Source: Metapseudomonas otitidis
Lineage (GTDB): Bacteria; Pseudomonadota; Gammaproteobacteria; Pseudomonadales; Pseudomonadaceae
Direction: 5' to 3'
Assembly: GCF_900111835.1 (NCBI RefSeq)
Contig: NZ_FOJP01000024.1
Location: 26,153-90,152 of the forward strand
DNA length: 64,000 nt
Shown here: in pieces, positions 1-14,841 of the stretch
Numbering within the stretch: the first letter of the stretch is position 1
Layout: every line of letters begins with the position of its first letter
Program-made: the position numbers and the translations under genes
The notes under the pieces: generated by a model
Database searches by the model: none
Told to the model about the DNA's origin: nothing
The model's input: the letters and a program-made list of their open reading frames with translations, nothing else

Positions 1-1363
1 AAAAGCTGACCAGATGGTTTGGCTCAGCGGCAGAGCCCCCCAGGGATAAGGTGCATGTAGCACCTGCCCCAATTACCTGCGCAATGCCACTTCCATTACT
101 GTCATCCAGGACATCGATATTGCCAGCAGCCCCAATCCAGCCAGATATTGAACCTGAAGTGGAGGCTGGCATCTCTACCTCGTTCAGCACTGCCAGGTCA
201 TCCGGTAGATCATCTGCAATTCTCTCTGCCAAGCACTGCAGTGTCGGCTCCGCTAACATGAATAGCCACGCCTGATTATCGGGCTCGCCTGTGCGCCGAA
301 GCACTCGCCCAAGCACTTGTCGGTAATGCAGCTCAGTGCGGATGCGACTGAGGTAGCAGCACACCTGGAGTCGAGGAATGTCCGTGCCTTCGCTGATCAT
401 TCCAACTGCGATAATCCAACGGCAGGCGCTGTGTCTGAACGCATTGATAACCTGCTGCGCAGCCGGGGTTTTGTTGGTGACGATGCGGCAACCTTCACCC
501 AGGGTTTCCAGGGCCAAAGCAATTTGCTGGGCGTGCTCGATGTCGGTGGCAACCACCAAGCCTGCCGCATCAGGCTTGATCAGGCGAAGCTCATCCAGCT
601 TGCTGCACCCGAGACCGAGTAACTGATCAATCACCTCGTCATGACGCAACAGCTCTTCGTAGGTGACAGGGGACTCCCCCAATAGTTTGGCAATGCTGGG
701 AAACATCCTGACAGTGCTCTCAGTGTCCAGCTCCTCGGTAAGTTTCACCTTCTGGTTGTCGAGGAGGACAATGCGAGGGGAGCGGCACACACCATCAGCA
801 ATGGCCTCTTTCAATCCGTAGCGGTAGTCGCAGATCAGGTACCCCTCGGGCGTCGAGTAGCGGGCCAGAGCAATGGCCCGGTCGTCCGAACGCCATGGGG
901 TGCCGGATAGGGCCAGGGTGAAGGTGGCCCTGTCCTGTACCCGCTGAAGAATCTGTTGGCCCCAGGCGTTGCTCAGGAGTACATCATGGCCGGCGCAGTG
1001 GTGGATCTCGTCAAAAACCGCGAATACACGGTAGTCATCGAGGAGTCGCCAGAACGCCTCATCTCGGTATTCCATGGCTTGATAGGTGAACGCTGCACCA
1101 ACTGCGCCGAGTTGGCCATCCAAGCGTCTGCCGAGCACCGCAGCAAAGGACGAGCGAAAGCCCTCGACAACCTGACAGGACGGAGCGAAGCAGAGCACCA
1201 GATCGATTCTGTCCTGCTCAAGCAGTCTGTTGGCCAGCTCTGCCGCCATGCGCGTCTTGCCGGCGCCCGGCGTTGCCTGGCAGAAGAAGTGCGGCGTGGT
1301 AGTGAAGTGCTCTAGTGCCGTGTCGATGCAGCGGCGTTGCCAGTCTCGAAGCAGTGTGGTCAT
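1..1363 (-). CDS. SF2 DExH-box helicase (partial, C-terminus outside window)
   Basis: I translated the minus strand from the ATG at 1363 and the frame stays open to position 1, so about 454 residues are visible. Helicase motifs in order: Walker A in ATPGAGKT (GKT at residues 35-37), DEIHH (from residue 119), SGTPWRSD (motif III, from 154) and a motif VI of the form RQVLGRVLRR near residue 375. It resembles the ResIII/DEAD helicases of restriction and other defence loci. Its start overlaps the stop of the upstream winged-helix gene in an ATGA arrangement, so the two are probably translationally coupled. No nuclease domain is visible in the part present. Target and activity are unknown. Confidence 0.85.
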   Translation of the reverse strand, partial: MTTLLRDWQRRCIDTALEHFTTTPHFFCQATPGAGKTRMAAELANRLLEQDRIDLVLCFAPSCQVVEGFRSSFAAVLGRRLDGQLGAVGAAFTYQAMEYRDEAFWRLLDDYRVFAVFDEIHHCAGHDVLLSNAWGQQILQRVQDRATFTLALSGTPWRSDDRAIALARYSTPEGYLICDYRYGLKEAIADGVCRSPRIVLLDNQKVKLTEELDTESTVRMFPSIAKLLGESPVTYEELLRHDEVIDQLLGLGCSKLDELRLIKPDAAGLVVATDIEHAQQIALALETLGEGCRIVTNKTPAAQQVINAFRHSACRWIIAVGMISEGTDIPRLQVCCYLSRIRTELHYRQVLGRVLRRTGEPDNQAWLFMLAEPTLQCLAERIADDLPDDLAVLNEVEMPASTSGSISGWIGAAGNIDVLDDSNGSGIAQVIGAGATCTLSLGGSAAEPNHLVSF

Positions 1364-1947
1364 CGTGCGGAGGCAAGCGTCTTGAGTGTCTTCTCGATGG
1401 CGCGAAGATGGCCCAGCAGGCGCGAGCTTCGGTCTCTAGCTTCCAGGTACTCGCCTTCGACCTTATCCCGGAGATGCGGCATATCATCGAGGAGCAGCTT
1501 GTATCGCTCCGCCTCGCCCATCGATGCCAGGAAGTCCAGCCTGATTTCCTTGAGGAGCGCTTCCAGGTGCTGATCCACATCGGCTGATGGTTGCGGTGCC
1601 GCCGCATTATTGAACGCTGACGGCTCCTGCTCTGACTCACAAGCGGTCTTATGGCTGTTCTCGAACCCGTTGTCGATCAGCTCCAGTTGCAGATGTGCCG
1701 GAATCGGCAGCAGGTGGTAGACCTGTCCCCGCGAACGGCGCTCTTCATCGAGCACAACCCAGCCCATGCGCAGCATTCTGCGGATCTGTTCATACACGTA
1801 GTGGCGCACATCGGCGATACGGAACTGTGTGCCCTTCAGGCGAGCAGCATAGGCGTCACGCAGTTCACGCGTCGTGAACCTTGCACACCCTTCCTCCTGA
1901 AGCAGCTCATACAGACGCCTGTCGAAGATAAACGAGGCCGATTTCAT
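1360..1947 (-). CDS. Predicted winged-helix / coiled-coil protein, helicase partner
   Basis: A 195-residue protein starting MKSASFIFD; the frame also extends upstream to a TTG at 2034, but that would run through the likely promoter at 1981-1994, so the ATG at 1947 is preferred. Residues about 5-80 read as a winged helix (ELLQEEGCARFTTRELRDAY, a basic helix, then a VVLDEE..QVYHLLP wing). Residues about 120-195 are charged and helical, probably a coiled coil (hexads around LLKEIRLDFL and LRAIEKTLKTL). It overlaps the helicase gene by 4 bases and likely forms a two-gene operon with it. Family not recognised; a DNA-binding or adaptor role for the helicase is inference. Confidence 0.65.
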   Translation of the reverse strand: MKSASFIFDRRLYELLQEEGCARFTTRELRDAYAARLKGTQFRIADVRHYVYEQIRRMLRMGWVVLDEERRSRGQVYHLLPIPAHLQLELIDNGFENSHKTACESEQEPSAFNNAAAPQPSADVDQHLEALLKEIRLDFLASMGEAERYKLLLDDMPHLRDKVEGEYLEARDRSSRLLGHLRAIEKTLKTLASAR

Positions 1948-1980
1948 TGAGGCACCAGAAGAGTTAACGCAGCAGAAATG

Positions 1981-1994
1981 CGGATTATAATCCG
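1981..1994. promoter_or_regulatory. Perfect 14-bp palindrome with TATAAT on both strands
   Basis: CGGATTATAATCCG is identical to its reverse complement and contains TATAAT on the plus strand (1986-1991) and on the minus strand (1989-1984). It lies between the divergent winged-helix gene (start 1947) and the XRE gene (start 2052), at distances that suit a shared -10 region. An XRE-type controller binding here would block or tune both promoters. The palindrome is seen; the operator role is inferred from restriction-modification controller (C) proteins, which bind symmetric sites overlapping their own promoters. Confidence 0.6.
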
Positions 1995-2051
1995 TGGCCC
2001 CTGCGTCCGCAAACACACGATAGTGCCGCCTCAAGTGGAATTGAGACGGTC

Positions 2052-2273
2052 ATGGAGAAGTTGGCGAAAGCGTTAGGGGAACGCATCCGGACGCAGAGAA
2101 AGGCCTGTGGGATTTCTCAGGATGCGTTAGCGCTGGCCTGCAGTATCGACCGTAGCTATATGGGGCGTATCGAGCGTGGTGAAGTAAACATCACCGTCGA
2201 GAAGCTGTATCGGATCGCAAGCGAGCTCGCCTGCGATCCATCCTGCCTTATGCCTCAGTTGTCAGAGCTGTAG
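2052..2273 (+). CDS. XRE-family helix-turn-helix regulator (C-protein-like)
   Basis: A 73-residue protein that is almost entirely one XRE/Cro HTH domain: LGERIRTQRKACGISQDALA, then IDRSYMGRIERGEVNITVEKLYRIA. Size and sequence match the controller proteins that time expression of restriction genes after entry into a new host. It stands between a divergent helicase unit and the methyltransferase operon, next to a symmetric site at 1981-1994. It probably represses the divergent promoters, its own, or that of the methyltransferase operon. The ATG at 2052 is the only sensible start; no strong ribosome binding site is seen. Confidence 0.85.
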   Translation: MEKLAKALGERIRTQRKACGISQDALALACSIDRSYMGRIERGEVNITVEKLYRIASELACDPSCLMPQLSEL

Positions 2274-2644
2274 CTCCGCATCTGATCGAGAGCGGTGTCC
2301 AAGAAGGCCTGACCAGATCCCGGCCTAATTTCGCTCTCGGATGCCCCCTGCTACTGCAGACAATACTTGGAGGTCTGCGGCTTTTTCGCATTACAGAAGC
2401 GCCTTCCTTTATCATCCCCGGCATCGTGTAGTGGTTGATTTCCCCGTTACTGGTTCAGGACACCCGGCTGTCGCTGTCAATGGCATTAGGCATACGTCAA
2501 TACTGCTGAGCAGAGCGGAGTTGCTGATGCTAACGCCAAGCCGACAGAGCAGCATGTGCCGGCCGGGGGATGTAGCCATTACCCAAAATCCTAGCGGCTA
2601 AAATCGCCGCCTTCGCGCATCAGCGATCTGGACAGTGGTAAACC
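2274..2644 (+). other. Intergenic leader of the methyltransferase operon
   Basis: There is no convincing gene in these 371 bases; an 86-codon frame at 2341-2601 has no family resemblance and no ribosome binding site. Near the end, TAAAAT at 2599-2604 could be a -10 box. It sits inside an interrupted inverted repeat, GCGGC/GCCGC at 2594-2598 and 2606-2610. This resembles in layout the palindrome at 1981-1994 but has a different sequence. Promoter function is inferred only. Confidence 0.3.
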
Positions 2645-5425
2645 ATGAATGCAGTAGAAATTGAGTCCGCCATATCGAACCTGGCCCTTGAGCCCTTTGA
2701 CGCGGCGGAGTTCCCGTTCACCTTCCTGGCCGCGTTCGGCAACAAGGAAACCGCGCTCAAGCGCCTGCGCGCCGGCAACAACAACGCCTCGGACGTACCC
2801 GGCGGCGTACTACTGCGCAGTAACATCCATATCGCCACTTGCGAGCTTGGCGGCGTGGGCGAAACGCTCAAGGCGCTGCGTGCCAGCCCGGCCACTACAA
2901 AAGCCAAAGCCAAGTTCATACTAGCCACCGACGGACAAACGCTGGAGGCCGAAGAGCTGATCACAGGTGAAACCATCGCCTGCGACTACCCGGACTTTCC
3001 CAACCATTTCGGGTTCCTGCTGCCGCTCGCCGGCATCTCCACCATCAAGGAGATCAAGGACAACCCCATCGACGTGCGCGCCACCAGCCGCCTGAACAAG
3101 CTGTACGTCGAGCTGCTAAACGAGAACCCGGACTGGGCCAAGGCCGAACGCCGCCATGACATGAATCACTTTATGGCGCGGCTGATTTTCTGCTTCTTTG
3201 CCGAAGATACCGATATCTTCCGTGGCGATGGTCTGTTTACCAAGACAGTTGAGCAGTTTAGCGAGCGCGACGGTTCAAACACCCACCAGTTGCTGTCGGA
3301 AATCTTCCGCGCCATGAACATCAAGCTGGCCGAGCGCGCCACTGCTCAGCCACGCCTGCCCAGCTGGGCCAACACCTTCCCTTATGTGAATGGCGGTTTG
3401 TTCTCCGGTAGTACCGAAGTGCCACGCTTCACGCGCATGGCGCGCACTTACCTGCTGCACGCTGGCAAGCTCAACTGGAAAAAAATCAACCCAGACATCT
3501 TCGGCAGCATGATCCAGGCCGTAGCCGATGATGAAGAGCGCGGCGCACTGGGCATGCACTACACCAGCGTGCCCAATATCCTCAAGGTGCTGAATCCGCT
3601 GTTTCTGGATGACCTTCGGGAGCAACTGGATGCATGCGGTGACAACAAAGCCAAGCTGCTCAATCTGCGCAAGCGTATGGCACGCATCCGCGTATTTGAC
3701 CCAGCCTGCGGCTCCGGCAACTTTCTAGTCATTGCCTACAAGCAGATGCGTGAGGTCGAGGCGGAAATCAATCGTCGCCGGGGCGAAGCCCACAACAAAT
3801 CCGAAATACCGCTGACTAACTTCCGCGGTATCGAACTCCGCGACTTTCCGGCAGAGATTGCCCGCCTGGCGCTGATCATTGCCGAGTTTCAGTGCGACGT
3901 GCTCTATCGAGGCCAGCAGGATGCGTTGGCGGAATTTCTACCGCTGGATGCGCAAAATTGGATCATCTGCGGTAATGCGCTATGGCTGGACTGGCTGAAC
4001 ATCTGTCCTCCTACAGGCACAGCTGTGAAATTACTCGCAGATGACTTGTTCAGTACTCCACTTAATCAGGCGGAGATCGAATTCGCGAACGAAGGTGGAG
4101 AAACATATATTTGCGGGAACCCGCCATATGTTGGGACAAAGTACCAAACAAAAGACCAAAAAGACGACATAGCGGCACTATTTAAAAGCGAAGGCATAAA
4201 TTCCGGAAACCTAGACTACGTTGGCTGCTGGCTCTTAAAGGCGGCGCAGTATGCTTCTAAAGTTGAGAGATTCGCCTTCTCGTTTGTGACAACCTCCAGC
4301 TTATTCCAAGGAGAGCAGGCTGAAATAGTCCTCCATACAATCTCTCGCTATAGTCTGAAAATTTACTGGTGTCATCCAAGCTTCATGTGGTCGAACAATG
4401 CATCTAATAATGCAGGTGTAACATGCAGTATCGTTGGCTGTGCTCGTGACGGGGCTCGACCTGAGCGATACATATATGGTGATGAGTCTAGGCGCAGAGT
4501 TGAGAACATCGGCCCATATCTTGTTCCAATGCCCGACATTGTTGTCTCAAAGCGACAGACTCCATTGTCGCAGGTATCTGCAATGAGTTATGGGAGCATG
4601 TCTAACGACAACGGTGAATTCACATTCTCCGATGACAGATACAGAGCCAGCATCAGTGCCAATCCGGAAAATAAGAGTATTTTCAAAGTCGCCGTAGGAG
4701 GAGCTGAATTCATCAGGGGGATTGTGCGAAGGAATATATATATCGATGAGACAACCACATTATCAAGTGCTCAGGAAGAAGAGTTTTCGGGCGTATTTGA
4801 TCGCGTGCGCAAATATCGCGCAGCAAGCAATCGAGAAGCAACTCGAAAGCTAAGCGCAGTTCCAATGTATTTTGCCGAAAGAAGGCATGCGGCGGCATGT
4901 AAGATATTTATACCTCAGGTTTTATCTGAGCGAAGGGAATATGTTACATCGGGGCTGTTAGGTAGTGATGCTCTCGTTATTGCTCCGCACATGCAAATCG
5001 TCGGCGGGCACAGTTATGAATTCGCAATTATCAGCAGTAAAATTCATCATGTGTGGATTTCTACAGTATGTGGAAAGCTGAAGACGGACATTCGTTACTC
5101 AAACTTGCTCGGCTGGAATACCTTCCCCATACCACTGCTCACCGAACAGAACAAGGCCGATCTGACCCGCTGCGCCGAGGACATCCTGCTGGCTCGCGAA
5201 GCCCATTTTCCCGCGACCATTGCCGACTTGTACGATCCAGAAGCCATGCCGGACAACCTGCGCCACGCCCACGAGCGCAACGATGAAGTGCTGGAGCGTA
5301 TCTACATCGGTCGTCGCTTCAAAAACGATACCGAGCGACTGGAAAAGCTGTTTGATCTCTACACCAAGATGACAGCGGGTACATTGGGGGCCGCATCGAA
5401 AAAGCCACGAGGGAAAAAGGTATGA
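2645..5425 (+). CDS. Adenine-type DNA methyltransferase, MmeI/type IIL-like architecture
   Basis: 926 residues. SAM-binding motif I is FDPACGSGNF (residues 351-360) and catalytic motif IV is NPPY (492-495), giving the gamma-class order of N6-adenine methyltransferases. The layout, with about 340 residues before motif I, a methylase core and a long C-terminal target-recognition region (about 560-830), is that of large type IIG/IIL enzymes. I could not find a PD-(D/E)XK nuclease motif at the N-terminus, so it may only modify DNA. From about 4010 to 5100 the sequence is clearly more AT-rich than either flank, which fits an exchanged target-recognition domain. Its stop overlaps the next start (ATGA at 5422), so it heads an operon with a helicase and a GIY-YIG nuclease. 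Target sequence unknown. Confidence 0.85.
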   Translation: MNAVEIESAISNLALEPFDAAEFPFTFLAAFGNKETALKRLRAGNNNASDVPGGVLLRSNIHIATCELGGVGETLKALRASPATTKAKAKFILATDGQTLEAEELITGETIACDYPDFPNHFGFLLPLAGISTIKEIKDNPIDVRATSRLNKLYVELLNENPDWAKAERRHDMNHFMARLIFCFFAEDTDIFRGDGLFTKTVEQFSERDGSNTHQLLSEIFRAMNIKLAERATAQPRLPSWANTFPYVNGGLFSGSTEVPRFTRMARTYLLHAGKLNWKKINPDIFGSMIQAVADDEERGALGMHYTSVPNILKVLNPLFLDDLREQLDACGDNKAKLLNLRKRMARIRVFDPACGSGNFLVIAYKQMREVEAEINRRRGEAHNKSEIPLTNFRGIELRDFPAEIARLALIIAEFQCDVLYRGQQDALAEFLPLDAQNWIICGNALWLDWLNICPPTGTAVKLLADDLFSTPLNQAEIEFANEGGETYICGNPPYVGTKYQTKDQKDDIAALFKSEGINSGNLDYVGCWLLKAAQYASKVERFAFSFVTTSSLFQGEQAEIVLHTISRYSLKIYWCHPSFMWSNNASNNAGVTCSIVGCARDGARPERYIYGDESRRRVENIGPYLVPMPDIVVSKRQTPLSQVSAMSYGSMSNDNGEFTFSDDRYRASISANPENKSIFKVAVGGAEFIRGIVRRNIYIDETTTLSSAQEEEFSGVFDRVRKYRAASNREATRKLSAVPMYFAERRHAAACKIFIPQVLSERREYVTSGLLGSDALVIAPHMQIVGGHSYEFAIISSKIHHVWISTVCGKLKTDIRYSNLLGWNTFPIPLLTEQNKADLTRCAEDILLAREAHFPATIADLYDPEAMPDNLRHAHERNDEVLERIYIGRRFKNDTERLEKLFDLYTKMTAGTLGAASKKPRGKKV

Positions 5426-5550
5426 GCGATATCCCTGCTAGCCTGACCACCTCCCCTGAAAGCTGCGGCGATTGGTTAGCTGATCTTGAAGGCCGCATCC
5501 ACAATGCTCAGGCGATGGCACTCTCATGGAGCAAGAATCACAGTGACTAA
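5422..5550 (+). pseudogene. N-terminal remnant of a DUF1016/YhcG-type PDDEXK nuclease gene
   Basis: A 42-codon frame starts at an ATGA overlap with the methyltransferase and ends at TAA 5548-5550. Its middle, CGDWLADLEGRIHNAQ, matches what I know of the start of DUF1016 (YhcG-like) PDDEXK nucleases, which typically read YGDWLADLKxRIHxAQ and continue for about 300 further residues. Here the match stops and the reading frame ends 12 codons later. The helicase GTG start at 5543 falls inside it. The simplest reading is that a full nuclease gene stood here and was removed by an internal deletion. Recognition of the family is from memory of its conserved opening and needs a profile search. Confidence 0.55.
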
Positions 5551-7654
5551 CACTACCAACCCGACCAACAGCTACACAGTGCCGTCGGTATCCATTGCTA
5601 CCGCGCACACAGGGGCATCCAGCAAGGCCAATCAGCTAGGCATGCGTACCATGCAGGAGCGCGCTTATGCCAAGCGCGGTGAACAGTACTTGCTGATCAA
5701 GTCGCCGCCCGCATCTGGCAAGTCCCGCGCCCTGATGTTCATCGCCTTAGACAAGCTCCATAACCAGGGACTGCAACAGGCCATCGTCGTAGTGCCGGAG
5801 CGCTCCATTGGCGGCAGCTTTGCAGATGAGCCGCTGAGCCAACACGGCTTTTACTGGGACTGGCAAGTAGCCCCACAGTGGAACCTGTGTAATGCACCAG
5901 GTATTGATGAACCGCGTGTGGCCAAGTCCAAGGTGGATGCCGTGCGTGCCTTCCTGACCAGCAGCGACAAGGTGCTGGTCTGCACCCATGCCACCTTTCG
6001 TTTTGCCGTGGAAGAGTTGGGCATTGACACCTTCGACAACCGCCTAATTGCCATCGACGAGTTCCACCACGTTTCCGCCAACCCGGACAACAAACTGGGT
6101 AGCCAACTGAGCGCGTTCATCAGCCGCGACAAGGTGCATCTGGTGGCCATGACCGGCTCGTACTTCCGTGGCGACAGCGAGGCCGTGCTGGCCCCGTCGG
6201 ACGAGAATAAGTTCGAGACGGTGACATACACCTACTACGAGCAGCTCAACGGCTATCGCTGGCTCAAGTCACTGGATATTGGCTACTTCTTCTACACCGG
6301 GAGATACGTGGATGCGGTCGCTAAGGTGCTGGACCCGGCGCTGAAAACCATCGTCCACATCCCACATCCAGCTGCTCGCGAAAGCCTTAAAGACAAGGAG
6401 CGTGAGGTCAATGAGATCATGAGCTCGCTGGGCGATTGGCAGGGTGTCGACTCGGTGACCGGCTTCCACCTGATCAAAGCCAAGGACGGCCGCACGCTGA
6501 AAGTGGCCGACCTTGTGGATGACAGCGACCCAGGAAAACGCTCCAAAGTGCTAGGCGCACTGAAAGACCCGGCTCAGAAGAACAACCGCGACAACGTGGA
6601 TGTAATCATCGCCTTGGGCATGGCGAAGGAAGGCTTTGACTGGATCTGGTGTGAGCATGCCCTGACCATCGGCTACCGCTCGAGCCTGACCGAAATCGTG
6701 CAGATCATTGGCCGCGCCACGCGCGATGCTGAGGGCAAGGAACGCTCGCGCTTCACCAACCTGATCGCCGAGCCAATGGCTGATCAAGCAGCTGTAGCCG
6801 AGGCGGTAAACGATATGCTCAAGGCCATTTCCGCCAGCCTGCTGATGGAACAGGTGCTCGCCCCGCGCTATGAGTTCACCCCGAAAGATACCGGGCCGAA
6901 AGAAGGCTTCACTTACGGGCCGGAGGGGTATCAAACGGGTGGCACCAATCTGGGTGTGAATGAGACCACGGGCCAGTTCCATGTCGAGATCAATGGCCTG
7001 ACCACACCGCAAAGCACAGAAGCCACGCGCATCTGCAAGGAAGATTTGAACGAAGTAGTAACCAGCTTCCTGCAGGACAAAACCGTGCTGGAGCGCGGTC
7101 TATTCGATAAGGAAAATACCTTGCCTGAGGAGCTGACCCAGCTGCGCATGGGCAAGATCGTGCGCGAGCGTTATCCCGACTTGAGCGACGTCGACCAGGA
7201 AGCCATCCGCCAACACGCCATCGCGGCCATGAACATTACCCAACAGGCCAAACTGGCTTTGGCGCAGGCAGATGCAAACGGTAGCGATAACGTGCAAGGC
7301 AGCAACGCACTGCTGGATGGCGTGCGCAAGTTCGTAAACGTGCGCGAGCTGGACATTGACCTGATCGACCGCATCAACCCCTTCGATGCCGCCTATGCGG
7401 TACTGGCGAAGGCGATGGATGAAAAGTCCCTGCGCCAGGTGCAGGCCAGCATTGCGGCCAAGAAGGTGAGCATTCCCGAAGACGAAGCACGAGAACTGGC
7501 AAAACGTGCTCTGCAGTTCAAGAATGAGCGTGGCCGCCTGCCTGACATCAATTCTGCTGATGCCTGGGAAAAGCGCATGGCCGAAGGTGTAGCTGCGTTG
7601 GCACGCTACCGCGCCCAGGCCAAAGCGGCACAGGGGGAATCCGCCAATGGCTGA
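5543..7654 (+). CDS. DEAD/DEAH-box (DExH) helicase of the methyltransferase operon
   Basis: 703 residues from a GTG at 5543, chosen because GGAG lies about 12 bases upstream; the frame continues upstream to a TTG at 5486 with implausible sequence. Motifs: PPASGKS (Walker A, near residue 55-61), DEFHH (motif II, near 172), MTGSYFRG (motif III), and GFDW...EIVQIIGRATRD (motifs V-VI, near 360-395). The C-terminal 250 residues are helical and match nothing I recognise. It overlaps the GIY-YIG gene by 8 bases. In this setting it most likely translocates on or unwinds DNA for the nuclease partner, as helicase subunits do in restriction-like systems; the partnership is inferred from gene order. Confidence 0.85.
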   Translation: MTNTTNPTNSYTVPSVSIATAHTGASSKANQLGMRTMQERAYAKRGEQYLLIKSPPASGKSRALMFIALDKLHNQGLQQAIVVVPERSIGGSFADEPLSQHGFYWDWQVAPQWNLCNAPGIDEPRVAKSKVDAVRAFLTSSDKVLVCTHATFRFAVEELGIDTFDNRLIAIDEFHHVSANPDNKLGSQLSAFISRDKVHLVAMTGSYFRGDSEAVLAPSDENKFETVTYTYYEQLNGYRWLKSLDIGYFFYTGRYVDAVAKVLDPALKTIVHIPHPAARESLKDKEREVNEIMSSLGDWQGVDSVTGFHLIKAKDGRTLKVADLVDDSDPGKRSKVLGALKDPAQKNNRDNVDVIIALGMAKEGFDWIWCEHALTIGYRSSLTEIVQIIGRATRDAEGKERSRFTNLIAEPMADQAAVAEAVNDMLKAISASLLMEQVLAPRYEFTPKDTGPKEGFTYGPEGYQTGGTNLGVNETTGQFHVEINGLTTPQSTEATRICKEDLNEVVTSFLQDKTVLERGLFDKENTLPEELTQLRMGKIVRERYPDLSDVDQEAIRQHAIAAMNITQQAKLALAQADANGSDNVQGSNALLDGVRKFVNVRELDIDLIDRINPFDAAYAVLAKAMDEKSLRQVQASIAAKKVSIPEDEARELAKRALQFKNERGRLPDINSADAWEKRMAEGVAALARYRAQAKAAQGESANG

Positions 7655-8837
7655 TATGAACGATGACGACCTTCTGGATGCGTTGGGGGTAGAAGTCCCC
7701 ACGCTCAAGACAGCCACTCGAACTCCTCGCGAAGAACGCATCATCGCTGGTTTCGAGGACATTCAGCGCTTCTATCAGACCCACGGCCGCGCCCCACTGC
7801 ATGGCGAAGACCGCGACATCTTCGAGCGCTTGTATGCCGTACGCCTGGATCAGCTGCGCAAGCTGCCGGAGGCACAAACCCTACTGGCCGGCCTGGATAG
7901 TCACGGCCTACTGTCAGGCAGTGCGGACGCCGCAGTAAATGTGGATGACCTGGATGAGGACGCCTTGCTCGCCGAGCTGGGCATCGGCAGTGAGTCCGTC
8001 GACCAGGACGACATCACAGTGTTGCGACATGTGCGCTCCAGCGCGGCAATCAGGGCGGCAGAAGAAATTGCCGCTCGAAACCCATGTAAAGACTTCGAGA
8101 AGTTCAAGCCGCTGTTTGATGAGGTGGAAGCGGGCCTCAAGCAGAAATTGTGGATAACCAAGCCCTTTGGCAAGAACGCGAGCATCGAGGCCGGGGACTT
8201 CTTCATTTTGAGCGGACTCATTGCCTATGTCGCCGAGGTGGGCGACACTTACAAGACGCCAAATGCGGAGATGAATGGGCGCTTGCGCGTCATCTACTCC
8301 AATGAGACGGAAAGCGATCTGCTATTACGATCCTTGCAGCGGGCGCTCTACAAAGACAGTGACGGGCGTGCCGGATCTCGGCTCATCAAGGTAGATTCCG
8401 GCCCACTGTTCAGCGACATAACCGAGCCGGACGACATCGAGACTGGCACTATCTATGTGCTGCGCAGCCAGTCCAGCCACCCATTCGTAGCCAAACACCG
8501 CGAGCTGATCCACAAGATTGGCGTGACCGGTGGCAAGGTGGAAACCCGTATAGCTGGGGCGAACAAAGATGCCACCTACCTATTGGCAGATGTGGAAGTG
8601 GTCGCTACTTACAAGCTGCACAACCTGAATCGCACCAGGCTGGAGAACATCTTCCACCGCCTGTTCGGCGCAGCGCAGTTGAACTTGACCATCGAAGACC
8701 GCTTCGGCAATCCGGTCAAGCCGAGGGAATGGTTCCTAGTACCACTGCATGTGATTGATGAAGCAGTTGAGCGTATTCGGGATGGATCGATTACCGGTGT
8801 AGCGTATGACCCGAAAACGGCTCGCCTGGTCAGTTAA
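7647..8837 (+). CDS. GIY-YIG nuclease family protein (T5orf172/Mug113-like)
   Basis: 396 residues. The C-terminal third carries the GIY-YIG signature: TIYVLRS (GIY strand, near residue 267), HKIGVT (YIG strand, near 290), an arginine in ETRIAGA (near 302) and the metal-binding glutamate in RLENIFH (near 332), ending WFLVPL as in T5orf172-type domains. The N-terminal part is acidic and helical with the repeated pattern DDDLLDALG / EDALLAELG (about residues 5-13 and 108-116), possibly a docking segment. It starts within the end of the helicase gene and closes the operon. As the only intact nuclease domain seen in the operon, it is the probable effector. Confidence 0.85.
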   Translation: MADMNDDDLLDALGVEVPTLKTATRTPREERIIAGFEDIQRFYQTHGRAPLHGEDRDIFERLYAVRLDQLRKLPEAQTLLAGLDSHGLLSGSADAAVNVDDLDEDALLAELGIGSESVDQDDITVLRHVRSSAAIRAAEEIAARNPCKDFEKFKPLFDEVEAGLKQKLWITKPFGKNASIEAGDFFILSGLIAYVAEVGDTYKTPNAEMNGRLRVIYSNETESDLLLRSLQRALYKDSDGRAGSRLIKVDSGPLFSDITEPDDIETGTIYVLRSQSSHPFVAKHRELIHKIGVTGGKVETRIAGANKDATYLLADVEVVATYKLHNLNRTRLENIFHRLFGAAQLNLTIEDRFGNPVKPREWFLVPLHVIDEAVERIRDGSITGVAYDPKTARLVS

Positions 8838-8862
8838 GGCGCAGCTAAAGCGTGATGATCAA

Positions 8863-8894
8863 ATCCGGGCGAAAGCCAGTCTCCTCGCCCGGAT
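8863..8894. terminator. Hairpin between convergent operons
   Basis: ATCCGGGCGA (8863-8872) pairs perfectly with TCGCCCGGAT (8885-8894) around a 12-base loop. It lies 25 bases after the GIY-YIG stop and in front of the convergent recombinase cluster. There is no T-tract, so termination is likely but not certain. Confidence 0.5.
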
Positions 8895-8958
8895 ACCCCC
8901 TTGGGTTGCACACCGAGCGTGTGCGCAATACGGCATAGTCGAGGAGGTGTGCGAATGA

Positions 8959-9369
8959 TTAGCCATTTTGTATCTCTTCAGGTCTTTTCTTGACCAAGGC
9001 ATAAAGATCCAGGTTGGGGATGGCATTGGCGTTCAAAAGCATCCTCTCAATCATACGCAGTTGCTCTGCATTATTTCTTTTGAGAACCGCAACCTCAGCC
9101 TTCAAGTGCTCTATTTGCTCCACAAGCTTTACTTCAGAAGCAGTTATCTTTGTGAGCAGGGAAGGCGTTGCCCCCCGAAGTTGAGCTTTTTTGTTCTTAT
9201 AAGATGTGTTGATACCCACATAAGTGCAGAGGGTTTGCCTAGTCGTTTTTATGCCAAGCTCAAGTTCAACCTTAGTCACCAGAGCATCCCACGTCAGCTT
9301 ACCTACCCACTTAGCCAACATTATCTCTATCTTACGCTGCTGCTGAGCTGATATTTTTGGGACTACCAC
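8959..9369 (-). CDS. Small HTH/coiled-coil protein of the recombinase cluster (TnpC-like)
   Basis: 136 residues from a GTG at 9369, chosen because GAGG lies about 7 bases upstream and the start abuts the stop of the preceding recombinase (9371-9373); a longer frame to 9462 would run far into that gene. The first half looks like a helix-turn-helix (LTWDALVTKVELELGIKTTRQTL). The second is a coiled coil (EVKLVEQIEHLKAEVAVLKRN). A small coiled-coil protein after two or more tyrosine recombinases is the arrangement of TnpC in Tn554-type transposons. A role as accessory DNA-binding factor in integration is inferred from that analogy. Confidence 0.6.
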   Translation of the reverse strand: MVVPKISAQQQRKIEIMLAKWVGKLTWDALVTKVELELGIKTTRQTLCTYVGINTSYKNKKAQLRGATPSLLTKITASEVKLVEQIEHLKAEVAVLKRNNAEQLRMIERMLLNANAIPNLDLYALVKKRPEEIQNG

Positions 9370-9370
9370 A

Positions 9371-11698
9371 TCACACCTCGCCTTCAGACAGACCGAAAGA
9401 GGATAAAAGAGAGCGCAACTCGGGATTAGCATCAGATGCTGTTCTGGCAGTCTTATCTTCAATAATACCCTTCAGGCGAGCCTCAAAATCCGGTAGGGCA
9501 CACGCGACCTTTGTAATGATCTTGGTATTTAGATCGGTCAAACTGAACTCAGAATTTTTATCTGAGTAACAAATCATCGTTCCGACAGCCTTACTTTTCA
9601 TCAAATCATTCAGCATGGATAGAATATGGGTATTTCGCGAGTGAATTAGATACCACTGCCTCATTGCCTGGGAGCTTGGTAAGCGTGGATCACACGCTAC
9701 CGATTCTAATCTCAAAGTTTGAAACGATAAATCTTTCTCAAAAAACTCGATTGTCTTCACATCGCCTGCTATGTGACAAGTATCCGGACACATGAAGCAC
9801 TGCGAGACGAAATCGTTCAAATAATTGCAAGGCGTTACATTAAGATTTTGAGTACAAAGACCGGTGGAGGTGACAGATGCCGGCAGGTTGGTGGTTTGTG
9901 TAAGTTGATCTTGGGAAACGACTCGAATATCCCGCCTGTCGATATCTGGCGGATTCAATATCGCACTCACACGACTGGCTTTCTCGTCGTGAGTCGTATG
10001 AATATAAGTATGGGTTTGCTCGGGATTCTTTCTGCCAGACCAAGCAGTGATAATTTCAACTGGAATGCTACTTAAATCAGCAAGGGTGTTAGATAAGTGC
10101 CGCAGACTATGCGGTCGAAGAATTAATTCTGACGAAAATCCGTAATCCTGAAAAATCGATGTCGTGTAGCGCCCCTGGCCGACCAGTCGAGTAAGAACCG
10201 AGGCGCCTAGCGACGCTAATGGCACCACCGCATAGTTTGTCTTTTGAAAAACCTTCCCACCACTTCCGACACTCTCGGGCGCACCATAAAGCCAACTCCC
10301 CAAGAAGCAGAACATGGCATCCTTAAGTTTGATACTTGATTCTCCGGTTGAAAATGAGAGCGGAAATTCCGGCAAAATTGATGTCCTATAGAAAGCAATC
10401 CACCACTCCTGCACTTCTTCAACCGAAACGACAGACTTATCGGAAAAAACTTTTGGCATATTGGCGTACCCGAACAAGTGGGGTAATCCTGCTAAAGCTG
10501 CACTTCTCGTTTGCGACACGGACAACTGATCTTGAGGCTGCAACGAGTAAATCGGTTTTTTTTCGAAAAAACGACCTCTTTGACTTTGATGGATGGAAGT
10601 CAGATCAGCTCCTTCCTTAAGGACCGGAACGCAATCATTAACCCCATAAAACCCTAAAGCATACCCCAATGTGAAAAGATTAGGCCGTTTGGTTAAATTT
10701 AAATTTCTCTCTAGCTCTGGTTCCATTTCGAACCCACTGAGCAACGCTTTCAAGCTTTTGCCCGGACTCTCGTAGAATCGACAGAGAATTCTTGCAGGCT
10801 CGCATGCCTTGTAGAAGAAGTTTAGGGCTTTCTTTATCGGCTCAGCGAGCACCGCAAGTACGTGATTTTTGTGGTTCCCGTAGCCTTTACTTCCAATCCA
10901 GTCGAGATAATAAACTGGCTCTCCATTACTTTCAGAGTAACAATGCAGTTTTTGTTTAGGCAGAACTGGTATTTCCGCAGAAATTCGATTGGGCGATGCC
11001 AGCGACAGTAGTGCAGAAGTCACCACTAAGGCATCATGGATTTTTATCTCTTTACCAGGGCTCAGCGAGCCATGTTCATCCACATACTCAAACACACTAG
11101 AGAAGATGTCGGCTAGCGCAAGTACTGTTTGGGTATCTGGAAGTTTCTCCAGCGTATTGTCAAACGCGGCATGTCCCGTCCTGTCTCTGTTGTCGCTGCC
11201 CTTCAGGTTGACCTTTCGCATCACCCCCTTTTCAGCGCAGAACGCGAGAAACGGCCGCAAGCGGTCAGCTGAACGCGCCCCCAAATTAAGGCCGGTGATT
11301 GTGGACTCTGATTGCTCATAGAGATCACCATCTATGAGTGACAACATCTTCCTAGCTACCGACGTCCGAGCTTGTTTTTCTTTGGCGGAAAGTGGTGTAT
11401 TAGTTGTTTCTATGATCCATATTTTTATCAGGTGGTCATAGGGGTAAGGAAGGGCGTCTATGGGGTGGTTGCCGGCGTTTCCTTTGCCCTTGCGGCCATG
11501 TACACCGCACAAGAATCGGGTTCGGCGGCCAGTATTGGGATCAATATGATACCAGACCAAATCATCAAACTCCGCTTTCTTGCCGCCATGCCCTTCAAAT
11601 TGCGCTAGCTTGGCTTCGCGATATTCGCTGATGAGCCGTTCCAATCGGCCAAGGTATTTGTTAAGCATCGATTGTGCGCCGCCTTGCGAGTTCTTCAT
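9371..11698 (-). CDS. Large tyrosine-recombinase-type integrase (third of three)
   Basis: 775 residues from ATG 11698; an ATG at 11668, overlapping the upstream stop by 8 bases, is an equally possible start. The catalytic block is in the C-terminal half: RPHSLRHLSNT (H-x-L-R-H box) followed by WSGRKNPEQTHTYIH, giving the late His/Trp and the tyrosine nucleophile. The first catalytic arginine is not obvious to me. After the catalytic domain comes a cysteine cluster, C..CN...CFMCPDTCH, probably a zinc site, then about 130 helical residues. It overlaps the 550-residue gene upstream and abuts the small gene downstream. Its size exceeds a typical phage integrase (350-450) and resembles TnpB of Tn554 (630). 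Confidence 0.75.
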   Translation of the reverse strand: MKNSQGGAQSMLNKYLGRLERLISEYREAKLAQFEGHGGKKAEFDDLVWYHIDPNTGRRTRFLCGVHGRKGKGNAGNHPIDALPYPYDHLIKIWIIETTNTPLSAKEKQARTSVARKMLSLIDGDLYEQSESTITGLNLGARSADRLRPFLAFCAEKGVMRKVNLKGSDNRDRTGHAAFDNTLEKLPDTQTVLALADIFSSVFEYVDEHGSLSPGKEIKIHDALVVTSALLSLASPNRISAEIPVLPKQKLHCYSESNGEPVYYLDWIGSKGYGNHKNHVLAVLAEPIKKALNFFYKACEPARILCRFYESPGKSLKALLSGFEMEPELERNLNLTKRPNLFTLGYALGFYGVNDCVPVLKEGADLTSIHQSQRGRFFEKKPIYSLQPQDQLSVSQTRSAALAGLPHLFGYANMPKVFSDKSVVSVEEVQEWWIAFYRTSILPEFPLSFSTGESSIKLKDAMFCFLGSWLYGAPESVGSGGKVFQKTNYAVVPLASLGASVLTRLVGQGRYTTSIFQDYGFSSELILRPHSLRHLSNTLADLSSIPVEIITAWSGRKNPEQTHTYIHTTHDEKASRVSAILNPPDIDRRDIRVVSQDQLTQTTNLPASVTSTGLCTQNLNVTPCNYLNDFVSQCFMCPDTCHIAGDVKTIEFFEKDLSFQTLRLESVACDPRLPSSQAMRQWYLIHSRNTHILSMLNDLMKSKAVGTMICYSDKNSEFSLTDLNTKIITKVACALPDFEARLKGIIEDKTARTASDANPELRSLLSSFGLSEGEV

Positions 11699-13313
11699 CG
11701 CAAACCATTATTGTTTGCCTCACCCAAACAATCTGTCTCTCCAATTTTTCAATACTGCGAGCGTAAAGAGGACTAACTAGGGAGTTGCGGTTTGCAGCAA
11801 GCTTGCCCTCTGCATCAGCCAATACCGACCTGTGATCAGCTTCTAGCATCGGACGAAAGTTTGGGCACCCATAACACCCCAATGGTCTCCCTAAAACAGT
11901 TGAACAGGTCGCGCAGGAATGCTTGTTGAGTGCCCCACCAACAGGGTTGAACTTATTGTCGACAATGACCTCATCGCCTTCCGGAACGACAGTTAAGGTA
12001 TGGCTAAAAGCCTTCTTTAGAAACTCATTTCCGATATACTTTGTGTCAATCTCTCTCCTAGATACATAATCCAAATCTATGTAATGCCTTGCAGCCGGCA
12101 CGGTGACACCTGTCATCTTGGCCAATTGAACGGCGGGCAGACCATTTTGAGCACCGCGAGTTAATACGGTGTGACGAATTCTGTTGGAAGTAGCCATACA
12201 TTCGACAGTTCGATCAGAGGCAACCGGAACCCATCTCATGGCCTGTGCAACTGCAGTCTCCGATATGTGGTAGGCAGTAGACTTTGGCGTAAACATGCTT
12301 TTGAACAAATCTAAAGAGTCAAATCGCACTTCAAAAAAATCAACCGCTGGAAACATAGGCATATCATTCATGAGGCTCAAGAGTTCAGATTGATCCACTT
12401 GAATCTCTGCTGAGTCCATCACTAGTCTGAGCCCTTCCAATACCACCCGTTTATAGTCTATAAGAACCCTTGAGATATATTCGGAAAGATGTATAGGATA
12501 GCGCTCGGGCCGCTCCCTTGAGAATTGTGCGCCCTTAGACTTAACTATGAACACTCTAAGCTGCAATGTTTGCCCCCCTACCGTGCCGATTTCGTCCACA
12601 GGAAGAATTCCCGCGTCGCGAAAACTCGCACCCGAGGGGATCAAATCAGACCATTTCAATAGCGCAATTTGAATTGGCCGCCTTACGATGGAGAGCAACA
12701 ACTTGTTAGTGACTATATTTCTGAGCCGCGCATATAGCCTCGGCGACTGAAAAAACAAAAGATCCCGACTGGCGCCCCAGTCGAACTCTTGTATATTTTC
12801 ATTGATCTGCCTGGCTAACGAGTCAAACTCAATATCGCTTAGTGCCCCAATGGAAGGATCAAGAGTATTGTCTTTACCCTTGTCCAAATGTGTCCGCGTA
12901 AACTTGTGATATTCTTCATACCGTGTATTACCTTGCCTAGAGAGCGTCCCAAAGAACTGATTGAGCCCCTTCTTATTGTTTGTCTGCAGCCCACTCCATA
13001 TAGATTTAACTCTGGCTAACGACGGAATGCCATTCAACATAAATGGCTTTACATTGCAAACGATACCTGACGCCGTACTCGCAGCCTTGGTTCGCACGTA
13101 GTCCACAAATACACTCAGAATTAATTTTTTATCATCATCTGGCATGTTAGACGAATGAACCCAGTCAACGCACAACCGTTTTCCTTTTCCATTATTCGGC
13201 AGTAATATCCATACATCGTCTGAGGTATTTACCATCAGGCCAGATTTGGCCGTAATCCATGAGCCTTCATTAGTCAGAGACTTAAAAACTTCCCGCCTCT
13301 TCTCGCGAGTCAT
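11661..13313 (-). CDS. Divergent tyrosine-recombinase-like protein with C-terminal zinc cluster (second of three)
   Basis: 550 residues. A recombinase-like core is suggested by RRPIQIALLKWSDL (arginine I position), SNRIRHTVLTRGA (an R-H-T box where most integrases have H-x-x-R) and a later tyrosine in ARHYIDLD. The C-terminus has a cysteine array, CATCSTVLGRPLGCYGCPNF, like a zinc ribbon. The catalytic pattern is less regular than in the neighbours, so it may be a non-catalytic partner. Start ATG 13313 overlaps the stop of the 415-residue integrase (ATGA), and its own end overlaps the third recombinase, so all are one translational unit. Confidence 0.65.
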   Translation of the reverse strand: MTREKRREVFKSLTNEGSWITAKSGLMVNTSDDVWILLPNNGKGKRLCVDWVHSSNMPDDDKKLILSVFVDYVRTKAASTASGIVCNVKPFMLNGIPSLARVKSIWSGLQTNNKKGLNQFFGTLSRQGNTRYEEYHKFTRTHLDKGKDNTLDPSIGALSDIEFDSLARQINENIQEFDWGASRDLLFFQSPRLYARLRNIVTNKLLLSIVRRPIQIALLKWSDLIPSGASFRDAGILPVDEIGTVGGQTLQLRVFIVKSKGAQFSRERPERYPIHLSEYISRVLIDYKRVVLEGLRLVMDSAEIQVDQSELLSLMNDMPMFPAVDFFEVRFDSLDLFKSMFTPKSTAYHISETAVAQAMRWVPVASDRTVECMATSNRIRHTVLTRGAQNGLPAVQLAKMTGVTVPAARHYIDLDYVSRREIDTKYIGNEFLKKAFSHTLTVVPEGDEVIVDNKFNPVGGALNKHSCATCSTVLGRPLGCYGCPNFRPMLEADHRSVLADAEGKLAANRNSLVSPLYARSIEKLERQIVWVRQTIMVCDEELARRRTIDA

Positions 13314-14557
13314 TTTTGCTGATCCACTCTTTTTTGATGCGCCATTGATATCTCTCTCGTCTTCAGCGCAATTCTCTTTTCATTATATCGTCTGTTCTGA
13401 GTCGTATTTTGCGACCAGCCCATGGCATATTTTCTAGCATCCTCAAGCAAAGCCGGATTGACCCCAAGCGACTCCCCTTTCTTATCAAAAATTTCATTCC
13501 ATTTGTGGCGCAACAAATGAGGATGGACATGAAAGCCCAGCGATCTAGAGAGCTTTTGAAATATTGCATTTATTGCCTTTAAAGAAAGAGGCTGACCCGC
13601 AGTGCCTTTAGAGTCATTTTCGCTGACAAACACGAAGTCATGGAATTGCGCACGAGGAAAGACAATACGAACGTTGTCAATATAGAACTTAACCTTCTCC
13701 AAAAAACCTGGATCAACCGAGGCGAAGTGTGCTTTTGTCTTTTGATTGGGTTTTTCAGAGCGCGGATCTGTTGGATCATTTGCAGATCGATAAATAGCTA
13801 GCTGATCGTTAGTGCCATGAAATAGACAGTCAGAAATCTTCAATTTTGCCAGCGCACCTCTTCTGATGCCGCTTAGGACTAGCAAATTGACGATCAAGTA
13901 ATTCCTCACCCTAGATGCTTTAAAGGGATTATTAGGAGATGACGGCATCAACATCTCTAAAAACTTTACGAAAACGTCATCCGGGATCACCGATTCCTCA
14001 GGATCGCCGACATGTTGCTCTCCATTCTTGCCAAGGGCATCTTCATCTAACCTAATTTTTGAAATAAGCCCATTAAATTTATTTTTTGTTTTTTCGTCAG
14101 CATCTTGCACTTCGTGAAACTCATCGAACAGCCATAAAAGAAATTGTCGAAGTCGTCTGATGCGACCTTGCAAGGTTTCGCTAGCGACCTTTGTCATCCC
14201 TTTCTGATTGGCAACAATGATGTTCCTTAAATGTTTATCATTTATATCTAGAAATCTTATATTTATACCTTCATCACCAGAACCCTTACTTAAGCAGCAT
14301 CTGTCATAGAACTGCATGTACTCCATCTGGGATATAAAAATGCCCGATGCAACTCGTTCGGGTAGGTCAATATTTTTTTCCGAAAAGTACTGCAGCACGA
14401 ACAGCAGTTCATTTGCGTACCTAAATCTCGTATTGGCCGATTTAGCAGATAAAGCGCCATTGAGATAGCAGGAAACATACGGATCAATAGGGCAATCCGC
14501 TTCGTCCACTATCGACACGAAGGGCAACGAATTGAATTGGTATCGTTTGACTTTCAT
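13310..14557 (-). CDS. Tyrosine recombinase / phage-type integrase (first of three)
   Basis: 415 residues from ATG 14557; a TTG at 14566 is possible but less likely. The catalytic set is readable: arginine in LLVLSGIRRGALAKLKISD, HVHPHLLRHKWNE (H-x-L-R-H), and MGWSQNTTQNRRYNEK (late Trp and Tyr). The N-terminal 200 residues include an SAM-like DNA-binding segment. This is the gene nearest the ttcA junction and the first of the four-gene operon, so it is the best candidate for the enzyme that cut ttcA. Codon use is AT-rich compared with the chromosome to its right, in keeping with transfer. Confidence 0.85.
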   Translation of the reverse strand: MKVKRYQFNSLPFVSIVDEADCPIDPYVSCYLNGALSAKSANTRFRYANELLFVLQYFSEKNIDLPERVASGIFISQMEYMQFYDRCCLSKGSGDEGINIRFLDINDKHLRNIIVANQKGMTKVASETLQGRIRRLRQFLLWLFDEFHEVQDADEKTKNKFNGLISKIRLDEDALGKNGEQHVGDPEESVIPDDVFVKFLEMLMPSSPNNPFKASRVRNYLIVNLLVLSGIRRGALAKLKISDCLFHGTNDQLAIYRSANDPTDPRSEKPNQKTKAHFASVDPGFLEKVKFYIDNVRIVFPRAQFHDFVFVSENDSKGTAGQPLSLKAINAIFQKLSRSLGFHVHPHLLRHKWNEIFDKKGESLGVNPALLEDARKYAMGWSQNTTQNRRYNEKRIALKTREISMAHQKRVDQQK

Positions 14558-14706
14558 GATTGACAAAAAAGCTAGTCCAATAACCGATTTAGTTACAAAC
14601 TAGCCCACAAATGAGTTCTGTCAAACGAGAGGAAAGAAAAAGCGACGGAAGGCGGGGCTTACAGGCAATGTCTACAGGTTTATAGGCTTTACAAATATTT
14701 TTTTGG
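14558..14706 (-). promoter_or_regulatory. Integrase upstream region and island end
   Basis: These 149 bases separate the integrase start from the broken ttcA. They contain an inverted repeat GCTAGT (14571-14576)/ACTAGC (14599-14604) and near-repeats GGCTTACAGG and GGCTTTACAA close to the junction. Such sites could be recombinase arm or core sites and must overlap the promoter of the integrase operon. No consensus promoter is clear enough to call. Confidence 0.35.
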
Positions 14707-14841
14707 TTATAACTTGCCGCCGGACAGGCAGACCATCACCTTGTCGCCGTCCTCGATCATGTTGAAGTCGGCGATGGCCTCGCCGGCCTGGCGACGGATG
14801 CGTTTCTGCAGCTTGTTCTGGTTGACCGAAAGGGTGCCCAT
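14707..14841 (-). pseudogene. ttcA: ttcA 5' fragment, disrupted by island insertion
   Basis: The translation from ATG 14841 gives [14 protein letters not shown], then [24 protein letters not shown], the conserved N-terminus of TtcA, the iron-sulfur tRNA thiolase that makes 2-thiocytidine at position 32. TtcA is normally about 270-310 residues; here the frame ends KL-stop after 44 codons, exactly where the PP-loop SGGKDS should continue. The missing part is expected at the other end of the island beyond position 1. No intact copy is in the window, so tRNA C32 thiolation from this locus should be lost unless the left junction rebuilds an expressed gene. Confidence 0.9.

Follow-up and report, generated by a model that had tools for sequence, protein, structure and literature searches.

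A 64,000-nucleotide stretch of the Metapseudomonas otitidis genome (NCBI RefSeq assembly GCF_900111835.1, contig NZ_FOJP01000024.1, positions 26,153 to 90,152 of the forward strand; hereafter, the window) encodes, on its plus strand at 2645-8837, an MmeI-family methyltransferase, a superfamily 2 (SF2) helicase-like protein, and a T5orf172/GIY-YIG protein, the latter two with intact active-site motifs (Table 1). Judged from sequence, these genes likely make up a mobile cassette in which a DNA methyltransferase is accompanied by a putative DNA motor and, as a protein of its own, a putative cutter, and which likely blocks phage. The interpretation favored here, and considered probable, is that the cassette belongs to a split type IIG-like class of restriction-modification (RM) systems that carry out methylation-guarded, ATP-dependent restriction with motor and cutter on separate proteins. 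A preliminary description of this DNA had also arrived at a split RM system with a separate motor and a GIY-YIG effector, which appears to be the best reading of the sequences. It placed the three genes correctly, but it joined them into a four-gene plus-strand operon with an XRE gene that belongs to a divergent minus-strand module.

The methyltransferase carries five Pfam domains (MmeI_N, MmeI_hel, MmeI_Mtase, MmeI_TRD, and MmeI_C), matches the solved MmeI structure 5hr4 with an E-value of 2.7e-122, and keeps both the S-adenosylmethionine-binding motif FDPACGSGNF (residue 351) and NPPYVG (residue 492). Because it has an MmeI target-recognition domain of its own (195.8 bits), a separate specificity subunit is not needed; in agreement with the preliminary description, no HsdS is among the matches listed for four proteins. 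The same description found no nuclease motif in this protein, and this also held: where the family has its nuclease D, E, and K, the window protein has D50, L57, and S59, no loose D...(D/E)xK pattern occurs in residues 1-160, and the only one in residues 1-340 lies at 322-335, outside the nuclease domain. Apart from MmeI_N, no PD-(D/E)XK profile was matched in a profile search of the protein, and no active PD-(D/E)XK domain was found in residues 1-340.

The helicase-like protein matches the Pfam family ResIII at its curated cut-off, with DEAD and Helicase_C below theirs, and its Foldseek matches are SF2 enzymes that include HsdR and LlaBIII. Its motifs are PPASGKS (residue 74), DEFHH (191), TGSYFRGD (223), and QIIGRATRD (406), counted from a TTG at 5486; in an alignment of 96 sequences, 95-96 share the same residue in each of these columns, or 90 in the case of A411. 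The start is likely the GTG given in Table 1, since 703 amino acids (aa) is the commonest length among 120 relatives listed and since the related locus L123 has a GTGA junction; an ATG at 5504 is a possible alternative. The helicase and GIY-YIG frames overlap by 8 nt (7647-7654), the sole overlap among the core genes. In 93 of 96 loci these two frames touch or overlap; the exceptions are L144 and two loci whose helicase frame is split. The ATGA-type overlaps by which the core genes had been thought to be joined were not borne out, since the ATGA at 5422-5425 is the start of a remnant open reading frame (ORF) and not of the helicase gene.

In the GIY-YIG protein, relatives of which are already called YeeC-like in some databases, residues G267, Y270, K290, G292, R301, and E333 show no variation across all 95 aligned sequences, one of which is the window's (only frames of more than 350 aa, and for the helicase more than 600 aa, entered these counts). 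The tyrosine of the YIG motif is replaced by lysine in the window (HKIG), and lysine at this place is typical of T5orf172. This substitution is one ground for an alternative in which phage are blocked under the guard of methylation without cutting, as in BREX, with the GIY-YIG fold only binding DNA or nicking it as a signal; another is the statement in PMC9973331 that phage genomes do not avoid the Bacillus subtilis motif. Against it, invariance of G267, Y270, R301, and E333 would be unlikely for a dead fold, and neither PglZ nor BrxC is among the PADLOC matches listed for ten proteins in 1-14566 (for the methyltransferase, the best 25 of 46). Non-cutting defense is therefore regarded as improbable, and restriction by a separate cutter is preferred.

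Table 1. Features of the cassette and of its upstream neighbors (window coordinates)
Feature	Position	Strand	Basis
MmeI-family N6-adenine DNA methyltransferase with target-recognition domain, without N-terminal nuclease motif (DnmA/YeeA-like), 926 aa	2645..5425	+	Pfam, 5hr4 match, motifs
42-aa remnant ORF, first 33 codons similar to start of YhcG (DUF1016/PD-(D/E)XK)	5422..5550	+	Alignment; 937 bp absent relative to L123
SF2 helicase-like ATPase (YeeB-like), likely GTG start, 703 aa; ATG 5504 possible	5543..7654	+	Profiles, motifs, Foldseek
GIY-YIG (T5orf172/MUG113) nuclease-type protein (YeeC-like), 396 aa	7647..8837	+	PF10544/PF13455 over cut-off
Cassette, extent as unit common to loci without the neighboring modules	2374..8941		Left edge between 2312 and 2374
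XRE gene of divergent module	2052-2273	+	
Divergent module: helicase with weak RadD/PbeA similarity and 224-aa protein without family match	2-2034	-	

Distribution of the nuclease motif and the helicase gene

Two even genome draws, one from the class and one from the phylum, contained MmeI_TRD matches in 29 of 274 and 51 of 398 genomes, respectively. All places scoring at least 117 bits, with the window's own left out, gave 55 fetched stretches; places at or below 59.5 bits (11 in the class draw and 28 in the phylum draw, two of them shared), mostly frames of about 930-1,380 aa, were omitted. This survey covers Pseudomonadota, with other phyla represented by three plasmid records. Helicase-like and GIY-YIG proteins of the kind described above are referred to below as YeeB and YeeC. 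A total of 20 of the 55 loci encode a methyltransferase with the D..E-x-K motif, and none of these 20 (17 with at least 2.5 kb of downstream sequence) has YeeB or YeeC. A further 26 have a readable N-terminus without the motif, and YeeB follows on the same strand in all 25 that have room for it; the 26th has 655 bp of contig. YeeC is also present in 23 of these 25; for the remaining two, the fetched sequence stops inside YeeB. In the last nine loci the N-terminus could not be read, and YeeB is present in four of them and absent from five. Thus, among the 42 loci with a readable N-terminus and enough flanking sequence, motif and helicase are mutually exclusive (17 of 17 versus 25 of 25; Fisher P 4e-12 for 17/0 versus 0/25).

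A 65-row tree was inferred by a quick method from just the methyltransferase and recognition parts; its rows are the window, 54 of the 55 survey loci, and 10 of 80 close loci, and five of them have odd composition. The rows were labeled for the presence of the motif: 41 lacked it (four of these labeled by YeeB only), 20 had it, and four were unlabeled. The label switches once, with Shimodaira-Hasegawa-like approximate likelihood ratio test (SH-aLRT) support of 100, and the four unlabeled rows, none of which has YeeB, group with the nuclease-bearing sequences. The exclusion of nuclease motif and helicase, split across one tree branch, is new here. In the genomes sampled, the absence of a nuclease motif is strictly coupled genetically to the presence of a helicase plus GIY-YIG next door, and the recurrence of the three-gene layout in evenly drawn genomes indicates that it is not due to chance. 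The N-terminal domain nevertheless likely keeps some job when the motif is gone, since its mean pairwise identity is about the same among 24 sequences that lack the motif (0.489) as among 18 that have it (0.501).

Searches that started from the helicase led to the same association. YeeB was found (E 1e-20) in 23 of the 398 genomes, of which 22, the window's own included, have an MmeI-family gene nearby on the same contig (compared by eye), and the 23rd (G456) holds a contig-edge fragment only. The three genes are thus conserved together (25 of 25 motif-less loci with YeeB, 22 of 23 YeeB genomes with an MmeI-family gene), and the preliminary reading holds on this point. Among the 80 relatives nearest to the window's methyltransferase (L061-L140, the best 80 of 375 confirmed relatives, counted separately from the survey), 73 have YeeB and 69 of these also YeeC; the seven without YeeB have at most about 1.3 kb downstream. 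Two pairs of entries, L085/L177 and L119/L162, are the same loci. Plasmids of Staphylococcus cohnii, Ligilactobacillus salivarius, and Rhodococcus pyridinivorans show the same gene order with the motif pattern absent, the methyltransferase gene of L. salivarius being annotated as two pieces. In plasmid records overall, the helicase was matched in 264 of 72,556, in 152 over at least 80% of its length. The listed Acinetobacter baumannii plasmid records (H36-H41 and H44-H52) match the helicase only in part (at 187-700 or at 35-197 of the query), and several of them hold two such places, as if interrupted.

With methyltransferase and helicase close together in 22 of 398 sampled Pseudomonadota genomes, the split class is common. 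It provides a clear test case, in that a built-in nuclease and an external motor plus nuclease stand one tree branch apart, for how a one-protein restriction enzyme relates to a three-protein machine. There is also a practical consequence. PADLOC model PDLC03598, made for type IIG restriction enzyme-methyltransferases, matches the window's methyltransferase at 870.1 bits, and no strong PADLOC model was found for the helicase-like or GIY-YIG partner. Counts based on PDLC03598 may therefore mix fused and split kinds, and the split class is misnamed in at least one defense catalogue.

The junction between the methyltransferase and helicase genes

The methyltransferase-helicase junction is longer than 500 bp in 14 of the 29 sampled loci and in 39 of the 73 close ones. 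Once duplicates are removed and the window is not counted, 51 of 100 loci have such a junction and 49 of them an ORF of at least 170 aa on the same strand. Of 79 insert ORFs, 66 were scanned (nine of the 13 left out came from near-copy loci). Among the best 25 of the 36 families matched, the recurrent ones are RhuM (8), AlbA_2 (7), YhcG (6), PDDEXK_4 (3), and GmrSD_N (2); Abi_2, AbiJ_NTD4, Fic, reverse transcriptase, AAA_15, and others occur singly. The junction is an insertion slot that takes up genes of defense type. Two further recurrent families, present in 10 loci (with L085/L177 counted twice) and 8 loci, had no Pfam or NCBIfam match when one representative of each was searched; these representatives (L125:11766-12614 and L117:11733-12575) are candidate new effectors. 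Inserts of about 7 kb lie at this junction in L085/L177 and L166; that of L085/L177 likely carries a reverse-transcriptase-like ORF, and both likely carry a helix-turn-helix/M78-peptidase-like ORF.

In the window, the junction codes for 42 aa, the first 33 of which align to the start of YhcG in L063, L088, and L123. Positions 5397-5510 match L123 at 11810-11923 (83% identity) and positions 5511-5620 match it at 12861-12970 (93%), so that 937 bp are absent relative to L123. On this alignment, the window junction is the scar of an internal deletion of a YhcG gene. The same scar junction is found in L061, L064, L065, L067, and L196 (a Pseudomonas aeruginosa plasmid), and in plasmid pPA942-IMP45 the remnant ORF is annotated as "hypothetical protein."

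Roughly half of the relatives carry genes in this slot; these genes likely act as optional second effectors, of which the window has lost one (YhcG). A bolder and rather doubtful proposal is that of a two-tier platform, in which the junction would serve as a dedicated slot for swappable back-up effectors (of YhcG, RhuM, AlbA_2, GmrSD, Abi, and Fic types) that are translationally coupled and fired when restriction is inhibited or engaged, as PrrC is to type I systems; the window's slot would then have been emptied while the core kept spreading. If general, such a slot would offer a simple route to new back-up effectors.

The island and its XRE module

The left edge of the cassette was placed from two sides: DNA matches to L123 and L066, which carry the cassette without the XRE module, begin at 2374-2375 (that of L066 running on to 8941), and matches to the XRE-module plasmids L197 and L198 stop at 2254 and 2312. 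The G+C content of 2-kb windows is 51-59% across the cassette and mostly 64-71% beyond 15 kb. Positions 1-14729 are 99.9% identical to part of the P. aeruginosa megaplasmid pPA942-IMP45, and past this match the window consists of high-GC DNA with tRNA genes; these observations suggest that the island likely moved recently. On the minus strand at 8959-14566 lie two tyrosine-recombinase-like genes (418 and 550 aa) and genes for a 775-aa protein with a weak recombinase match and a 167-aa protein, which are likely the mobility genes of the island. Most of the island, recombinases included, is common to L061, L064, L065, L067, and pPA942-IMP45 (80-100% identity).

Whether the XRE gene belongs to the system can be judged from these comparisons. 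That it lies upstream on the same strand, in an arrangement shared as a whole by L061, L064, L065, L067, and L196, is what an undescribed four-gene operon including XRE would lead one to expect. However, the XRE gene is not as near to the others as had been claimed, with 371 bp between its stop and the methyltransferase start, and each unit occurs without the other. Window bases 168-2312, 192-2312, and 168-2254 match plasmids pF007, p382, and pPAMH19, respectively, in which a divergent helicase, a hypothetical gene, and XRE occur with no annotated methyltransferase adjoining. In pF007 and p382, XRE is followed by recombinase-type genes, with no methyltransferase annotated in the 14 kb shown; these recombinases have no DNA-level likeness to those of the window where compared (pF007). 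In pPAMH19, XRE is followed, across the start of the record, by a DeoR regulator and glmS. Conversely, L123 and L066 aside, 26 survey loci of the split kind have 1 kb or more of upstream sequence, and a same-strand XRE match lies in the 2.5 kb upstream in one of them (25 have none); in the close set this holds for 9 of 68 loci. Since each occurs without the other and XRE is rare upstream of split-kind loci, the XRE module and the cassette are, on sequence comparison, two units of one island, and XRE is not part of the system. With the three-protein class moreover already published (PMC4752239), a four-gene operon is very improbable. The divergent module itself may be a separate defense or maintenance module. 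Beyond it, BPSL0761 and DUF6088 genes occur in pPA942-IMP45 and pPAMH19.

Proposed mechanism and relation to known systems

In the favored split RM reading, the methyltransferase likely recognizes and methylates one asymmetric site and would also act as the specificity subunit for the helicase and GIY-YIG proteins, as in type I systems. Its motif-less N-terminal domain may serve as a docking surface for these partners rather than as a nuclease. From unmethylated sites, the helicase-like protein would translocate on DNA and bring along the GIY-YIG protein, which is predicted to cut the invading DNA. The passages on DnmA-YeeB-YeeC in PMC7261158 and PMC9973331 describe a conserved gene order and no phage or transformation phenotype in B. 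subtilis; these results indicate that not every member restricts under laboratory conditions. They are also the basis of an alternative argued for B. subtilis, in which a working methyltransferase stands beside an inactive restriction half, helicase and GIY-YIG are relics, and methylation serves gene regulation only. The deletion phenotypes and the lack of motif avoidance (PMC9973331, PMC7261158) favor this, as does the loss of an accessory gene from the window operon. Yet helicase and GIY-YIG retain their catalytic residues, which are near-invariant in 95-96 aligned sequences, the core genes are kept together across loci, and PMC9973331 cites a Vibrio crassostreae study in which deletions increase sensitivity to some phages but not all. 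A relic is thus considered unlikely, if somewhat less so than non-cutting defense, and an active split RM system remains the preferred reading. The literature passages on OspHL35III and DnmA-YeeB-YeeC show no cleavage by any member of the split class.

Several known systems share parts of this layout (family tables here give the best 25 matches per protein). Type I RM is set apart by the absence, among the matches listed for four proteins, of HsdS and of an HsdR-type nuclease domain on the helicase. Neither DrmA nor DrmB of DISARM is among the matches listed for the ten proteins in 1-14566, and the methyltransferase matches DISARM DrmMI only in part (100.7 bits versus 870.1 for the IIG model); its matches to BREX PglX are short and lie around the methyltransferase motif. 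CglI, as described in PMC5737866, resembles the window in having a separate nuclease and a DEAD-family helicase-like ATPase that act as a pair in nucleoside triphosphate-dependent cleavage, a likeness drawn from description and not from sequence; the CglI cutting complex consists of just the R and H subunits, whereas in the window the methyltransferase recognition domain likely gives specificity. AchA6III-type systems (PMC4752239, S4 Fig panel B) share an MmeI-like methyltransferase without nuclease motif and a separate partner, which there is one fused PLD nuclease/translocase, whereas in the window motor and GIY-YIG nuclease are apart.

MmeI itself (type IIL) has spacer, methyltransferase, target-recognition, and C-terminal domains in common with the window protein. 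Its nuclease residues, D70, E80, and K82 (PMC4833311), form a D70...E80-x-K82 motif in its own N-terminus; in the window, the MmeI domain architecture and recognition domain are present, the N-terminal PD-(D/E)XK is gone, and two partner genes follow. Closer still is DnmA-YeeB-YeeC of B. subtilis, a likely acquired element with the same order of methyltransferase (a motif-less MmeI relative), SF2 helicase, and T5orf172 protein (PMC7261158, PMC9973331); the B. subtilis control genome was found to contain the MmeI_TRD domain. Both papers cite Morgan 2009 for motif-less MmeI homologues beside yeeB- and yeeC-like genes, and PMC7261158 credits the type I-like proposal to that work. According to these accounts, and not by sequence, B. 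subtilis differs from the window in that stretches are missing from the C-terminal parts of YeeB and YeeC and in having no phage phenotype. Although the preliminary description put the system forward as a candidate undescribed operon, it falls, as far as sequence and the published figure go, in a kind already described in that figure and in the DnmA-YeeB-YeeC papers: the three-protein "type IIG-like" class, with OspHL35III as prototype, in which methylase/specificity protein, translocase, and GIY-YIG endonuclease are three proteins (Blow et al., 2016; PMC4752239, S4 Fig panel C). The window has each of these: an MmeI-like methylase/specificity protein without N-terminal nuclease motif, an adjoining gene for a separate SF2 protein of translocase type (translocation being predicted), and a separate GIY-YIG family protein (PF10544/PF13455, with catalytic residues). 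By description rather than by sequence, its gene content does not differ from that of OspHL35III, to which the window adds the YhcG remnant ORF.

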